From: Vallitalea sp.
GTDB lineage: Bacteria; Bacillota; Clostridia; Lachnospirales; Vallitaleaceae
Direction of reading: 5' to 3'
Assembly (NCBI GenBank): GCA_025210515.1
Contig: JAOARM010000025.1
Location: forward strand, 62,001-126,000
Length of the DNA: 64,000 bases
The notes under the pieces were generated by a model. The model saw only the letters and a list, made by a program, of their open reading frames with translations, made no database searches and was not told where the DNA came from. The position numbers were made by a program, and so were the translations under genes. How positions within the stretch are numbered: position 1 is the stretch's first letter; each line of letters begins with the position of its first letter. Below are positions 26,889-32,697 of the stretch, one piece after another.

Positions 26889-27704
26889 TTAGTATTCTTT
26901 AGCACTTTTATACTCTGATGCTTTTTTTTCTAAACTGTATTTTTTATTGTTATTATATAAAAATGCATCATAAGTTGCATCAACAACAATCCATTTGTTT
27001 TCATCTGCTATATATATTTCATTCCATGCATGATATACATCTGTATGGGCTGAATAACCTTTTACAAGTTTAGTTGGTATAGAAGCACTTCTTAGCATTG
27101 ATGCTAACAGAGAAGCGTAATCATAACATATGCCTGTCCCACTTTTTAATGTACTGTCTATATTAGGTAAATAATCATACTTTAGATTCTCTGCTTTTTT
27201 ATTATCATATGAAATATTTTTTACTATGTACTGATAAATAGCTGTTACTTTATCTCTATCACTTAATTCTATGTTATCTTTAATTATGTTAGTAGCTAAC
27301 TTAATTGCTTCATCATTGTTATTCCATTCAATACTTTGAACTGAGTTAAGAAAAACTTGATTATTATCTGTAATATTAACATCAGCTGAATTACAAAATA
27401 CCTTTTTATATTTTTTCCCTGTTGTATTTTCGTATATATTAACTACATATTTACCATTACCTAATTGTAAAGGAAAGTTAATATATTCTTCATTGCTTTT
27501 TAAATTATATGTATATTTTTCTTTACCTTTTATTATCATTAATTTAACTTTTACGTCTTTCTCAGACTTATATAAAATTCTTACTATACCTTGTCCACTT
27601 TTTGAAAAATCAATATTATATTGAGATTCAGCAGCTAAAGTTGTTTTAGATAATACACTAAAACTTAAAAATAATACAAAAAATAATACAATTATTTTTT
27701 TCAT
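26889..27704 (-). CDS. Secreted transglutaminase-like (papain-fold) protein
   Basis: The protein is 271 residues with an N-terminal signal peptide (KKIIVLFFVLFLSFSVLS, cleavage near TTLAA). A beta-rich segment comes first, then a transglutaminase-like core with the catalytic triad visible: Cys in GTGICYDYA, His in VYHAWNEI, Asp in VVDATYD. It may cross-link or cleave wall or surface proteins; the substrate is unknown. The ATG is at 27702-27704 and its GAAGGGAG ribosome binding site lies at the 3' edge of a c-di-GMP-I aptamer. Two such aptamers are stacked upstream, so expression should respond to c-di-GMP. The neighbouring gene makes an SPKTG-anchored surface protein, a plausible target. Confidence 0.9.
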   Translation of the reverse strand: MKKIIVLFFVLFLSFSVLSKTTLAAESQYNIDFSKSGQGIVRILYKSEKDVKVKLMIIKGKEKYTYNLKSNEEYINFPLQLGNGKYVVNIYENTTGKKYKKVFCNSADVNITDNNQVFLNSVQSIEWNNNDEAIKLATNIIKDNIELSDRDKVTAIYQYIVKNISYDNKKAENLKYDYLPNIDSTLKSGTGICYDYASLLASMLRSASIPTKLVKGYSAHTDVYHAWNEIYIADENKWIVVDATYDAFLYNNNKKYSLEKKASEYKSAKEY

Positions 27705-27712
27705 ATATAAAG

Positions 27713-27797
27713 CTCCCTTCGGCAACCGGCTACCACCCATCATATGGAAGGCCCATGGCTTTGCGTCCTAACCTTTCGATCAGTTTGCTATTATCGT
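27713..27797 (-). promoter_or_regulatory. Cyclic di-GMP-I (GEMM-I) riboswitch, proximal copy
   Basis: The minus strand shows the GEMM-I core: GCAAAC near the 5' end, a GAAA tetraloop hairpin, then GGACGCAAAGCC, the paired GGGCC, and the receptor part GGTAGCCGGTTGCC. The last paired strand runs into GAAGGGAG, the ribosome binding site of the gene starting at 27704. This suggests control of translation initiation. Confidence 0.92.
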
Positions 27798-27872
27798 GTA
27801 AGCTTAAAATTAATTGTATTTCACCAATAGAATAATAAGTTATTATTCTAAAAAAAAGTATATAAAAACTTT

Positions 27873-27968
27873 CCTCTTCGGTAACCAGGCTACCACTTAT
27901 AATCTCTTATAAAAGGCCCTATAGCTTTGCGTCCCAGTTTTTCAAAAGGTTTGCCAGTATCGGTGAAA
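27873..27968 (-). promoter_or_regulatory. Cyclic di-GMP-I (GEMM-I) riboswitch, distal copy
   Basis: A second aptamer has the same core: CAAACC, a GAAA tetraloop, GGGACGCAAAGC, GGGCC and GGTAGCCTGGTTACC. Its outer stem can pair CTTTTC with GGAAAG. Just downstream, AAAGT/ACTTT followed by eight T residues (about 27850-27876) could form a weak intrinsic terminator competing with that stem. The two aptamers are about 75 bp apart in one leader. Confidence 0.92.
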
Positions 27969-28112: not shown

Positions 28113-28147
28113 TTAAAAGACTGTCTCAGAGTATTATGAGACAGTCT
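28113..28147 (-). terminator. Terminator after the SPKTG surface protein gene
   Basis: A perfect 11-bp stem (AGACTGTCTCA/TGAGACAGTCT) with an eight-base loop, then TTTTAA on the minus strand, lies 22 bp after the stop at 28169. Confidence 0.75.
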
Positions 28148-28168
28148 CTCAGAGTTTAAATATGACCG

Positions 28169-31045
28169 TTATTTGTCTTTTTTTCTTTTACATTCTAATA
28201 CTAATCCAGATGTCATTAACAATGACCCTAATCCATATAATAAAGCGCCAGGAAAACCTCCAGTTTTGGGCGATTGTTGTGGTGCACCAGCTGGAACTTG
28301 TTCATCTAATATTTCAATTTCTTCTTCTGTCTGTGGATTTATTTCTATACAAATTTCTGGATTTTGCTCTGGCTGTACCTCTGGTTCTGGTTCTGGCTCT
28401 GGCTCAGGCTCTGGTTCTGGCTTATATTCTTCTTCTGGTTGTGTTTTCTTTTCTTCAAATACCGCTTTTAATTTTGCAGTTCTCTTAACGACTATTTTAT
28501 TTTCTGTTAGTAATAAATCAGTATCCCCTTCCCATCCAGTGAATATATATCCTTCTTCTGGTTTTATCTGCATTATTACATGAGTATTCCAAGCATAGGT
28601 TCTCTCTCCTGGTGATGGAAGAATTTTTCCTCCTTCTGTACATTCAAGAGTTAACTTATAATATGTTGGATATGGATCTGGATCCGGCACTGGTGTTGGA
28701 GGAATATAATTTTGTTTAAATACTGCTATAATATTATATTTAATTGGATTATCTACATTAAATTCCAATTGCTTATTTTTCAAGTTATTATTTGAACGTG
28801 TAACATTTAGTATTCCATCAAAGGAACTTCCATTTGATATTTGTCTATTTTCTTCCTTTTCATCTACTTCTTCGATGAGCCAGTGGTCAAAACTCCATCC
28901 ATTACTTGCTTCACCAAATAAACTAATTAGTTGTGGATTATAGTAGTAATAATTAGTTGGTCCATTAGAATCTCCAATATACTTATCTACTGCAATTCCC
29001 TCATTCCTAATAATACCTCGTCCTTGGACTTTAAAATTAACAATTGCATTATCAAGTATGGTATGAGATATATTTATCCATTGTATTGTAATATCTTCTC
29101 CACTTACAAAATCTTCATCAGTTATATACCTTTTTCTATCCATTTGACTAGAATACTCCATTAAAGGATTAGGTAATTCAAATATAATATAATTACCTAT
29201 AGGAATATTATCGAATTGCAAAATTCCATTTTCATCCGAAATTCCTCTACGCAATAATTTATCTAAAAGTGTAGCATCGTAATCAGTATATATTTTATAA
29301 ATTAAATCTTCACTTTCATCATTATCTGGTAATAAACCAAAACCAAATCCTGCTCCCGCTGATTCATTTTCATTCTCATCTTCATAATCTTTAATTTTTT
29401 TTATTATTTTTATAGTCTTATTTTGTACTGGTACTTTTATATTAATTTTCACATCTACGCTATTAGCAATATGAGCCAATTCTCCTTTATAAACATCTAC
29501 CATATCAAAATGATAAATATAAGTGCCACTAGCATCTTCCGGAATCGTAATTGGTAAATTTTCTACTCTTATTACATCTTCTTTTTCATATCCAATTCCA
29601 TATATAGGAGCTGATGATAACAACTTATTAGTATTTCTTAATCCAATATAAACTTCATTTAATTTATCATATAGTTTATTATTTTCATTATATGTGGCAT
29701 CTCCATAACCTTCTCCATTACACTTTAATGTGAAATTAAGATATATTGTATCACCTGGTTTAGCATTATATTGATTATTATCCACATCAATACTGCCGCC
29801 TAAAACATCTTCTTTCTGCTCAGCAAATGATCCATTATATGCATAATATACCATTTTATATACTTTTTCTTCTGGCTTATAATTAACTACTACATTTTTA
29901 TCACAATCCATTTTTACTTTTATGATATAATCATCGAAACTACTTATTTCCTTTTCATATTTGTCAGAAACATCAAATCCCTTAACACTGTATCCCTTAT
30001 TGGAATATGCTCTTATCTCAACTATTGTTCCCTCAGTGTATCCATTTACAGAATTTGGTTGTGTAAGTATATCATATGTTCCGCCTTCAGATATATTTTT
30101 AGTAATATTTAATTGATATCCTTTCATCTCTTTTGTTTTACAAGATTTTTTCATTTGTTTGCCTTCTTTGCCACCTATTAAGGTTACTACTTCCACTACA
30201 TATTTTTCATTTGGCAACAATCCATCAATGACTGCTGTTGTTGAATTTATTTCTTTTGTTTTAACTACTTTTCCTTTTTTGCTAACTGTTATTTTGTACC
30301 CAGTTGCTCTATCCACCGAATCATATGATACATCTACGGAATCATAAGTAGTATTTAAAGTTAAATTAGTAGGAGCCGGTGCCTCCACGAATCTATATGA
30401 CATATAATCTGTATATTTAAAGAACTTTCCAAATACTTTTGCTGTAATTTCTGCATCTTCGGTTATTTCTATGTTAATATAATTATTAAAATTACACCAG
30501 CTACCGTTATTGATTTTATATGCAGATTTTTTTAATCTTACATAAGTAGCCTCTATAGTTATTTTAGCTTTTTCTCCTTTATAATAAATACATTCTCCAT
30601 TTATTATATCTACAGGGGTAGAATCATTGATAATATTAATTGTAGAAAGCGTTCTACTTGAACTCTCTAACTCTTCTTGAATTTGGCTCTCTTCATTTTC
30701 TAAGACCTGATTATTTTCTTTATCTACCACTTTGTTTTGCTCTTGCTCTTTATCATTATTATGCTCTTCTTTATCTATAGGTTTATCTATTTCTTTGTTT
30801 ATTTCATTCTTATCTTCTTCACTAGTTAATTGTGTCTGTTCATTTGTTTGCTGTAATATTTGATTCTCTTGTACTTGATTTTCATTTTGTTTTTCTTGAA
30901 TTTCATTCTCTAATTGTTTTTCTTCTTGAGTATTCTGAATTTGTTGTTTACCTTCTTGGGCATATCCAGTAATACCAAAAAGACCTACTAACATTGCAAT
31001 CATAATAATCATTGATGCCACTTTTCTTAGTCTCATTTTCTTCAA
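28169..31045 (-). CDS. Multidomain cell-wall-anchored surface protein with SPKTG sorting signal
   Basis: The protein is 958 residues. A signal peptide (about 1-29, ending GYAQ) precedes a Gln/Glu/Asn-rich stalk (30-130). A fibronectin-III-like domain lies at about 222-306 (APTNLTL...TGYKITV) and a Cna-B/SpaA-like domain at about 560-650 (GILQFDNIPIGNYIIFELP). Divergent InlB-type repeats end in GWSFDHW and GYIFTGWEGD. A Pro-Glu repeat (about 870-890) would span the wall. The tail is SPKTG at 925-929, a hydrophobic helix and KRKKDK: a sorting signal of the (S/P)PxTG kind. The likely anchoring enzyme is the sortase upstream (31322-32119). Start TTG, eight bases from GAGAGGGTG. Probably an adhesin; the ligand is unknown. 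Confidence 0.9.
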   Translation of the reverse strand: MKKMRLRKVASMIIMIAMLVGLFGITGYAQEGKQQIQNTQEEKQLENEIQEKQNENQVQENQILQQTNEQTQLTSEEDKNEINKEIDKPIDKEEHNNDKEQEQNKVVDKENNQVLENEESQIQEELESSSRTLSTINIINDSTPVDIINGECIYYKGEKAKITIEATYVRLKKSAYKINNGSWCNFNNYINIEITEDAEITAKVFGKFFKYTDYMSYRFVEAPAPTNLTLNTTYDSVDVSYDSVDRATGYKITVSKKGKVVKTKEINSTTAVIDGLLPNEKYVVEVVTLIGGKEGKQMKKSCKTKEMKGYQLNITKNISEGGTYDILTQPNSVNGYTEGTIVEIRAYSNKGYSVKGFDVSDKYEKEISSFDDYIIKVKMDCDKNVVVNYKPEEKVYKMVYYAYNGSFAEQKEDVLGGSIDVDNNQYNAKPGDTIYLNFTLKCNGEGYGDATYNENNKLYDKLNEVYIGLRNTNKLLSSAPIYGIGYEKEDVIRVENLPITIPEDASGTYIYHFDMVDVYKGELAHIANSVDVKINIKVPVQNKTIKIIKKIKDYEDENENESAGAGFGFGLLPDNDESEDLIYKIYTDYDATLLDKLLRRGISDENGILQFDNIPIGNYIIFELPNPLMEYSSQMDRKRYITDEDFVSGEDITIQWINISHTILDNAIVNFKVQGRGIIRNEGIAVDKYIGDSNGPTNYYYYNPQLISLFGEASNGWSFDHWLIEEVDEKEENRQISNGSSFDGILNVTRSNNNLKNKQLEFNVDNPIKYNIIAVFKQNYIPPTPVPDPDPYPTYYKLTLECTEGGKILPSPGERTYAWNTHVIMQIKPEEGYIFTGWEGDTDLLLTENKIVVKRTAKLKAVFEEKKTQPEEEYKPEPEPEPEPEPEPEVQPEQNPEICIEINPQTEEEIEILDEQVPAGAPQQSPKTGGFPGALLYGLGSLLMTSGLVLECKRKKDK

Positions 31046-31321
31046 AAATGTTTCACCCTCTCTTTTAATTATTCTTTTAAGATAATTAACCTAGTAAAAT
31101 TAATATATACATAATTTAACTAATATGTTAATTTTTTACAGTATTAGGACAAAAAAATTGGGCTTAGAAAATTTATAATAAGTTATTATCCCTAATCTGC
31201 CCTGTATATATTAATTTCATACTTACTAAAAATAATTGCTTAGTAATTCTACTAAATGAAATTATATTTTAATAAGTATATATGATATTATTATTGCAAT
31301 TATTATAAAATTTTATTTAGG

Positions 31322-32119
31322 CTACTCTATTACTCCATGTACAATTAGTCTATGAGTTGCACCAATAACTGGGTCGCAAGTAATTAGAGTAATTACTTTG
31401 AATTTACTACTTCCTCTCATAACAGTTAAATCATTAGGTTCAACTATCTTTTTTTCATATACAGTATATACATACTCCTTGTCCTTTGTATTTATGACTA
31501 TTTTATCTCCATTTTCTAATTCATTTAGTCTATTAAAGAAAACTCCGTATGTGTGACTTCTATGTCCAGCCAATACTGCATTACCTATCTCACCAAATTC
31601 TCCACTATTTGGCATATAACCAATAGCATATTTTAGGGTTTCAATATCTATCCCACTAGCAATAGGAAGATTTACATCAATTTTATCAATCTTAATTACA
31701 GCTATTGCTTTAGGTTTTTGTTTTATCTTAGGTTTTTTCTTGAGATTACTGTTATTATTTGTTGCAGCATTATTATTAGTATTATTATTGTTATCATCAC
31801 TAGATGTATTATTAGTTTTATCGTTAGAATCGTTATTTAAAACTTCTTGTGTCTCTTCTTGTGTATTTATTTGAGTATTTACCTCAATTGGTGTAATATC
31901 ACTTTGATTATCTTCTATGTCGCCCCATTTAAAAATGTCGTTTAATATTTCATTTTCTTCTAATTTGATTGCCTCTTCATTAGCTTCAGGTTCAGAATGT
32001 GCATAAAAGTCTTGTATCATTTCTTGTTGTAACTTTTTAGTACGATATCTACCAATCAAAGGTATAGAAATCAATATCACTCCTACAATAATTAACACTA
32101 GTGATAATACTTTTCTCAT
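31322..32119 (-). CDS. Sortase family transpeptidase
   Basis: This 265-residue membrane enzyme should anchor sorting-signal proteins to peptidoglycan. One N-terminal membrane helix lies at about 4-22, followed by a low-complexity Asn/Thr-rich linker (about 95-130) that sets the catalytic domain away from the membrane. Catalytic residues are visible: His in LAGHRSHTYG, Cys in TLITCDP, Arg in THRLIVHG. The TLxTC form recalls class D or E sortases, but I cannot fix the class. Its ATG overlaps the pth stop by one base (TAATG), so translation is coupled to a housekeeping gene. The likely substrate is the SPKTG protein at 28169-31045; the 276 bp between them show no terminator or riboswitch. Confidence 0.92.
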   Translation of the reverse strand: MRKVLSLVLIIVGVILISIPLIGRYRTKKLQQEMIQDFYAHSEPEANEEAIKLEENEILNDIFKWGDIEDNQSDITPIEVNTQINTQEETQEVLNNDSNDKTNNTSSDDNNNNTNNNAATNNNSNLKKKPKIKQKPKAIAVIKIDKIDVNLPIASGIDIETLKYAIGYMPNSGEFGEIGNAVLAGHRSHTYGVFFNRLNELENGDKIVINTKDKEYVYTVYEKKIVEPNDLTVMRGSSKFKVITLITCDPVIGATHRLIVHGVIE

Positions 32120-32697
32120 TAATCACATTCCTTTCGTTTAACATTATATATATTCATAGCTTTATCTATGCCATCATGCAATATTTTTTCAATTGAGTCA
32201 CTTGCTCTTTTTACTTCTTTGACCATCTCTTTAATTTCTTCTTCACTAAATCTACTTAACACGTGATCTTTAAGATCCCATTCTGGGGACTTATTGCCTA
32301 CCCCTACTCTTATTCTTATAAATTCATTAGTGCCAAGATGATTAATAATATTTTTCATACCATTATGCCCACCTGCACTACCTTTTTTTCTAATACGCAT
32401 TTTTCCTATATCAAAACAAATATCATCATATACTACAATAAGGTCATTTTCATCACATTTGTAAAAATCCAATATCGCTCTAATACTCTCTCCACTTAGA
32501 TTCATATATGTTTGTGGTTGAACTAACAAAACTTTATGTCCTGCGATAACCCCACTACCCATTATAGCTTTGTGTTTTCTTTTATTCATCTTAATATTAT
32601 TGTCATAAGCTAATCGTTCTATTACCTCAAATCCTACATTATGTCTAGTAGCTGTAAACCTCATGCCAGGATTTCCTAATCCAACAATTACATACAT
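32119..32697 (-). CDS. pth: Peptidyl-tRNA hydrolase
   Basis: This 192-residue enzyme (also named SpoVC) frees tRNA from abandoned peptidyl-tRNA. Catalytic His is in ATRHNVGFE, Asn in GLGNPG, and Asp in VYDDICFDIGKMR; RKKGSAGGHNGMKNI is the family signature. Length is normal. AAAGGTGAT precedes the ATG. In many Firmicutes pth is followed directly by mfd. Here the sortase gene is fused to its stop and the surface-protein block intervenes. Confidence 0.98.
   Translation of the reverse strand: MYVIVGLGNPGMRFTATRHNVGFEVIERLAYDNNIKMNKRKHKAIMGSGVIAGHKVLLVQPQTYMNLSGESIRAILDFYKCDENDLIVVYDDICFDIGKMRIRKKGSAGGHNGMKNIINHLGTNEFIRIRVGVGNKSPEWDLKDHVLSRFSEEEIKEMVKEVKRASDSIEKILHDGIDKAMNIYNVKRKECD

Follow-up and report, generated by a model that had tools for sequence, protein, structure and literature searches.

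A transglutaminase-fold enzyme behind c-di-GMP-I riboswitches and its possible role in releasing wall-anchored adhesins in Vallitalea and other Gram-positive bacteria

The association of a sortase-anchored surface protein with a secreted enzyme of transglutaminase fold (TGase), encoded behind two c-di-GMP-I riboswitch aptamers, raises the question of whether such an enzyme reinforces the cell surface or detaches adhesins from it. This arrangement occurs in Vallitalea sp. (genome of 3.5 Mb in 50 contigs), within the window analysed here, a stretch of 64,000 nucleotides. The order on the minus strand is pth, sortase, the 958-aa SPKTG protein, a terminator, two c-di-GMP-I aptamers, the TGase-fold enzyme and mfd, with the following features:

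32119-32697, minus strand: pth
31322-32119, minus strand: sortase of 265 aa, overlapping the end of pth (PF04203 match)
31151-31202, minus strand: terminator-like hairpin with a T-run between the sortase and adhesin genes, read from the sequence
28169-31045, minus strand: 958-aa sortase-type adhesin (fn3, InlB_B-like repeats, acidic stalk, SPKTG anchor)
28286-28303, minus strand: juxta-anchor box EQVPAG, adhesin residues 915-920, candidate site for recognition or cutting by the TGase-fold enzyme
28259-28273, minus strand: SPKTG sorting motif, adhesin residues 925-929
28115-28148, minus strand: intrinsic terminator behind the adhesin gene, read in the sequence as GAGACTGTCTCA...TGAGACAGTCTTTT
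27877-27965, minus strand: distal c-di-GMP-I aptamer, G at position 20 (RF01051, 61.6 bits)
27864-27868, minus strand: U-tract right after the P1 3' strand of the distal aptamer, candidate ligand-stabilised terminator (sequence; conserved layout and pairing test)
27805-27801, minus strand: AAGCU strand facing the Shine-Dalgarno sequence in the extended P1 helix (sequence; duplex tests)
27718-27799, minus strand: proximal c-di-GMP-I aptamer, A at position 20 in Vc2 numbering (RF01051, 65.8 bits)
27702-27717, minus strand: Shine-Dalgarno GGGAG (27717-27713) and start codon, directly 3' of the proximal aptamer (sequence; duplex tests)
26889-27704, minus strand: secreted TGase-fold enzyme of 271 aa (PF01841 match, signal peptide, triad)

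Profile matches, motifs and intact catalytic residues bear out the sortase, the SPKTG protein and the secreted transglutaminase-like protein announced in a preliminary description of this DNA. The aptamer pair lies directly 5' of the TGase gene and not of the adhesin gene, which the terminator at 28115-28148 sets apart from the riboswitch-TGase unit. A search with defence-system models gave no match.

The sortase scores 111 bits against PF04203 (cut-off 26.6), with catalytic residues His186, Cys248 and Arg257 invariant in 11 orthologues, and is the one sortase match of the whole genome. Its scores fall below the NCBIfam class cut-offs: 124.4 for class C (160), 114.7 for class E (160) and 100.9 for class D SrtD (140). 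The 958-aa adhesin has a TTG start, a signal peptide, an fn3 domain and two divergent InlB_B repeats, and its C-terminal part consists of an acidic E/P stalk, SPKTG, a hydrophobic helix and a basic tail; no riboswitch of its own was detected at E values up to 5. At least two further sortase substrates are predicted in the genome, an LPRTG protein of 1218 aa and an LPKTG protein of 2147 aa. The former was reached through the best weak match in a PF00746 search of the genome, in which nothing exceeded the cut-off. Its C-terminal repeat, stalk and anchor align with those of the 958-aa protein at 36% (about 210 residues), and an inner segment does so at 27%; its gene is preceded by a c-di-GMP-I aptamer of its own. 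Additional substrates of the sortase had been viewed beforehand as a possible objection to the module; these two leave it intact because both resemble the adhesin beside the anchor. On motif evidence only, the sortase would fix these adhesins to the wall.

A TGase homologue is present in 21 of the 22 genomes of the family. A sortase gene lies directly upstream in 13 of 19 family loci examined, mostly in the order pth-sortase-TGase-mfd, and among these 19 loci only the window species has an adhesin between the two. The preliminary description had regarded the block as inserted between pth and mfd. This holds for the adhesin, an extra gene in this species, but recent insertion of the whole block was rejected, since relatives keep the order pth-sortase-riboswitch-TGase-mfd. 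Where the upstream DNA could be read, one, two or three aptamers (Rfam) stand directly 5' of the close family orthologues of the TGase gene; at one family locus on a short contig none was seen. Five genomes of the same genus carry the TGase gene at another site, behind three aptamers, and a giant SLH-anchored protein is its neighbour in G014, G016 and G017.

The association extends well beyond the family. A scan of named genomes yielded 80 TGase loci, in Paenibacillus, Bacillus, Clostridium, Tissierella, Anaerocolumna, Natronincola, Brevibacillus, Saccharibacillus and other genera. Among the 77 further Bacillota loci, those not already counted, aptamers occur within 420 nt upstream of the TGase gene in at least 48, a sortase gene just upstream in 27 and an LPxTG protein nearby in 27; outside the family, the gene order is often LPxTG adhesin-sortase-riboswitch-TGase. 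Neither riboswitch nor sortase accompanies 21 of the 77 wider homologues (about a quarter to a third), which may belong to a different TGase subfamily. The presence of the riboswitch and that of the sortase are not significantly associated among the wider homologues (p = 0.33), and co-occurrence of TGase and sortase at the genome level is only modest (26/34 versus 145/259, p = 0.03). A sortase as obligate partner of the enzyme was rejected, as some TGase-bearing genomes have no detected sortase. The anticipated co-occurrence of all three genes was found in part: sortase and TGase are neighbours at the 13 family loci, and many other genera have an LPxTG protein beside them, but conservation at this position does not extend to the 958-aa protein. 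Together with their c-di-GMP-I riboswitches, these genes constitute a genuine module that recurs.

Five c-di-GMP-I aptamers were found in the genome, together with 13 GGDEF matches. Besides the TGase pair, both members of which exceed the RF01051 gathering score of 35, and the aptamer of the 1218-aa gene, the remaining two are found ahead of a gene for a secreted acidic repeat protein and one of unknown family. A20 variants of this riboswitch are of the cGAMP type in Geobacter, and G20 corresponds to a preference for c-di-GMP (PMC6456294); the distal TGase aptamer has G20 and the proximal one A20.

The TGase start codon lies very close behind the 3' strand of the proximal P1 helix, so that the Shine-Dalgarno sequence would be enclosed in an extended P1. 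Pairing between the 5' P1 flank of the proximal aptamer and the segment from Shine-Dalgarno to start is stronger in the native combinations (-9.19 kcal/mol) than in a control in which strands were swapped between species over 5000 rounds (-6.77 +/- 0.31; 0/5000). The same test on a stretch 30 nt upstream revealed no effect. Distal aptamers, the extended P1 of which runs into the U-tract, gave -8.51 native against -7.13 permuted (0/5000). From this conserved helix pairing, the platforms of the TGase gene are predicted to be OFF switches under ligand. On the adhesin and sortase side, the aptamers are associated with a GC-rich terminator that takes its 5' arm from the 3' end of the aptamer itself. 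This layout is seen before the 1218-aa gene here and at loci of Bacillus (L119, L136), Paenibacillus (L087, L089) and Saccharibacillus (L135, L138), and is missing in three other surface-protein leaders (L108, L133, L150). Ligand binding should block the overlapping terminator, and these platforms are therefore predicted, from their helices, to be ON switches.

The enzyme itself matches PF01841 at 82 bits (cut-off 23), is the sole Transglut_core match of the genome and has a Cys193/His225/Asp242 triad that is invariant in 16 orthologues. Its AlphaFold2 model (pLDDT 83) comprises an fn3-like N-domain and a transglutaminase core. The top structural match, over the catalytic domain, is a protein deposited as Streptococcus pyogenes TglA (PDB 9crn, identity from the entry title; Z 14.5). 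Other matches include a putative protease (Z 12.3), LapG (Z 11.6), human TG3 (Z 10.0) and two pseudomurein endo-isopeptidases (Z 11.0 for PeiP and 10.9). The fold fails to separate a protease from a cross-linker, both kinds being among the matches. The inclusion of proteases in the fold and the GGDEF matches of the genome were counted for adhesin release. The LapG/BTLCP family (DUF920) is absent from a Pfam scan of the enzyme at E values up to 0.1, and the HExxH zinc motif of the PPEP type is absent from its sequence.

A [DE]xx[VIT]Px[GA] box recurs at the sorting signals of TGase loci, in most cases 5 to 23 residues ahead of LPxTG. Counted as [VIT]P.[GA] within 45 residues, the box occurs in 26 of 32 sorted proteins from TGase loci and the window genome, a set that includes the proteins where the motif was first noticed, versus 3 of 45 from class-mates without a close orthologue (p = 1e-11), or 2 of 26 when only non-pilin controls are considered (p = 1e-8). 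It was also present in 9 of 16 sorted proteins elsewhere in TGase genomes, sampled once the motif had been fixed (p = 1e-4, same controls). In the window genome, the 958-aa protein carries EQVPAG, the 1218-aa protein EEVPQG and EEIPQG, and the 2147-aa protein a variant, DEIALGG. The giant SLH-anchored proteins adjoining the TGase gene have TPLG exactly at the SLH junction in four of four cases; other SLH matches in five same-genus genomes gave one clear case in about 27. An explanation of the box as a sortase feature was rejected, since it also precedes SLH anchors; being present beside both kinds of anchor, it seems to track the enzyme rather than the anchor type. Neither Gln nor Lys is conserved in the box. 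The stretches EQVPAGAPQQSPKTG, EEVPQGLAKELPRTG and EPTTPLGAIEFYD are proposed as candidate substrates of the TGase-fold enzyme.

It is probable that the locus is a c-di-GMP-controlled system for the display and release of adhesins, in which the TGase-fold enzyme cuts them at or near the box. At high c-di-GMP, the aptamers before the TGase gene would fold with an extended P1 helix. Judging from the conserved pairing, this helix would end transcription at the distal aptamer, where it runs into the U-tract, and would block translation at the proximal one, where it encloses the Shine-Dalgarno sequence. Adhesin-side riboswitches, for example that of the 1218-aa LPRTG gene, would turn expression on under the same ligand. 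A drop in c-di-GMP would then allow the secreted enzyme to be made and to cut adhesins at or near the [VIT]-P-x-[GA] box; a cut beside the SPKTG, LPxTG or SLH anchor would release the adhesin and free the cell.

The preliminary description had instead supposed that the enzyme is a true transglutaminase, modifying or cross-linking the adhesin that the sortase anchors, so that the surface coat is strengthened under c-di-GMP control. The intact C-H-D triad, the deposition of the nearest structural neighbour as TglA, the further matches to human transglutaminases and the recurrent adhesin-sortase-TGase gene order are all consistent with cross-linking. However, the enzyme platforms appear OFF-like and those of adhesins and sortase ON-like. 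The cell would thus produce the enzyme and the adhesin at different times, the enzyme when adhesins are unwanted, and the proposal finds no support for this reason. The shared box, moreover, offers no conserved Gln or Lys and lies beside the anchor, where cutting would free the protein. Because of the opposite platforms and the position of the box, an adhesin-releasing cysteine protease is favoured, and cross-linking is considered unlikely.

Alternatively, the substrate might be peptidoglycan or the anchor linkage itself, and the enzyme could be, for instance, an endo-isopeptidase freeing wall fragments that carry adhesins. Pseudomurein endo-isopeptidases do share its fold, with the Z scores given above, and it is secreted and its gene often adjoins that of the sortase. 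This would leave unexplained why the box tracks the enzyme in sortase- and SLH-anchored proteins alike, and the binding of SLH domains to the wall involves no covalent bond with peptidoglycan; such an activity seems very improbable. Nor is it at all likely that the box is a lineage habit of stalks and linkers, with TGase and adhesins being neighbours by shared ancestry and no contact as enzyme and substrate. Many of the loci are indeed related, the linkers are acidic and of low complexity, and the motif is short, but it recurs across Bacilli and Clostridia and with two unrelated anchor types, and it is rarely seen among the sorted proteins of class-mates that lack the enzyme or among the remaining same-genus SLH proteins.

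A release function would place the locus beside two described systems. In Clostridioides difficile, c-di-GMP riboswitches repress the protease ZmpI/PPEP-1 and induce its sortase-anchored targets CD2831 and CD3246 (PMC4591827, PMC6200980). The comparison with this organism in the preliminary description was apt: both systems have a secreted enzyme under a c-di-GMP-I riboswitch, a single sortase and anchors of the SPKTG/PPKTG type, and the repression of the enzyme, the induction of adhesins by c-di-GMP and the cleavage near the C-terminal sorting signal known from C. difficile are predicted here. However, C. difficile uses a zinc metalloprotease acting at proline motifs, and its adhesin genes carry c-di-GMP-II switches, whereas in the present system the cysteine enzyme is of transglutaminase fold, switches of the c-di-GMP-I class stand on both sides, the aptamers are in tandem and the predicted site is another one. 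In Pseudomonas, LapG, a transglutaminase-like C-H-D cysteine protease, frees the large adhesin LapA at low c-di-GMP (PMC3032545). It shares with the Vallitalea enzyme secretion, the C-H-D residues, the fold type and, as we infer here, adhesin release at low c-di-GMP. In contrast, LapG (DUF920/BTLCP) is restrained at the protein level by LapD, a c-di-GMP receptor, and the adhesin that it cuts, at the N-terminus, is one of the outer membrane, whereas control here is by RNA and there is no LapG-family sequence match. The system would work like the ZmpI and LapG cases but, by sequence, belongs to neither.

The link between riboswitch and TGase is already known at the COG level: an entry in the enrichment table of a 2025 survey (PMC12452182) lists COG1305 genes of Bacillota behind tandem c-di-GMP-I riboswitches, which corresponds to the present module in broad gene family and in the double or triple aptamers. 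The word sortase is absent from the text of that survey, and the passages considered here contain no adhesin, OFF/ON logic or substrate box. Among open-licence papers, none was found that links the tandem aptamer-COG1305 arrangement to sortases, adhesins or release, or that describes the pairing of adhesin and enzyme, the logic of the switches or the box.

In many Gram-positive bacteria, an adhesin anchored to the wall seems to be paired with a secreted enzyme that its riboswitches are predicted to turn off at high c-di-GMP, which suggests that this enzyme cuts cells loose when c-di-GMP falls rather than gluing them down. We also lean, if less firmly, towards the broader view that these enzymes represent a widespread, so far undescribed class of proteases that release adhesins in Gram-positive bacteria and that combine a transglutaminase fold with repression by multiple c-di-GMP-I aptamers and recognition of [VIT]Px[GA] beside a sortase signal or SLH domains, as an RNA-controlled counterpart of LapG. 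The candidate cleavage box and the opposite RNA switches named here are concrete enough to be tested. If this view is correct, a function would have been found for the riboswitch-controlled COG1305 enzymes of Bacillota, and Paenibacillus, Clostridium, Bacillus and their relatives would have a common c-di-GMP detachment switch. Adhesin release gated by c-di-GMP would then have arisen with a zinc protease in C. difficile, with LapG in Gram-negative bacteria and with a TGase-fold enzyme here.

Two further genes of the genome lie downstream of c-di-GMP-I aptamers, and a third stretch carries a large LPKTG protein (L027, L028 and L029 are stretches of this genome outside the window):

L028:6747-7859, + strand, 370-aa secreted protein that contains STDDDS repeats and has one weak match, RsgI-like; c-di-GMP-I aptamer upstream
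L027:6495-7265, - strand, 256-aa gene without a Pfam match; c-di-GMP-I aptamer upstream
L029:3053-9496, + strand, 2147-aa LPKTG protein with DUF11/SdrD_B repeats

The LPKTG gene is located near a putative mreB/mbl-like gene and putative flagellar rod-like genes, as judged from their sequences.

Related arrangements occur in other genera. Saccharibacillus loci L135 and L138 carry two consecutive TGase paralogues, each with its own aptamer(s), and their sortase and adhesin genes are preceded by tandem aptamers with terminators. In Tissierella/Tissierellaceae (L133 and L150), a c-di-GMP-I aptamer lies upstream of a secreted protein resembling camelysin/TasA on a reading of its sequence, whose gene adjoins a small PxTG adhesin and a riboswitch-TGase. 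In four loci (L072, L074, L075 and L076), the TGase gene lacks an in-frame ATG at its signal peptide, and the start is either CTG or an ATG/GTG within the 3' strand of the proximal aptamer.

Comparison of the c-di-GMP-I aptamer sequences reveals that base 20 is not constant between leaders. It is A in the proximal aptamer of the window (27718-27799, - strand) and in the aptamer preceding the 256-aa gene, the highest scoring of the genome's c-di-GMP-I aptamers, and C in adhesin-side aptamers of Paenibacillus and Saccharibacillus. Upstream of the TGase in four relatives (L062-L065), it is A in the distal aptamer and C in the proximal. Since this position varies, and since A20 is cGAMP-type in Geobacter aptamers of the c-di-GMP-I class (PMC6456294), a single leader may divide its ligand preference between its aptamers.
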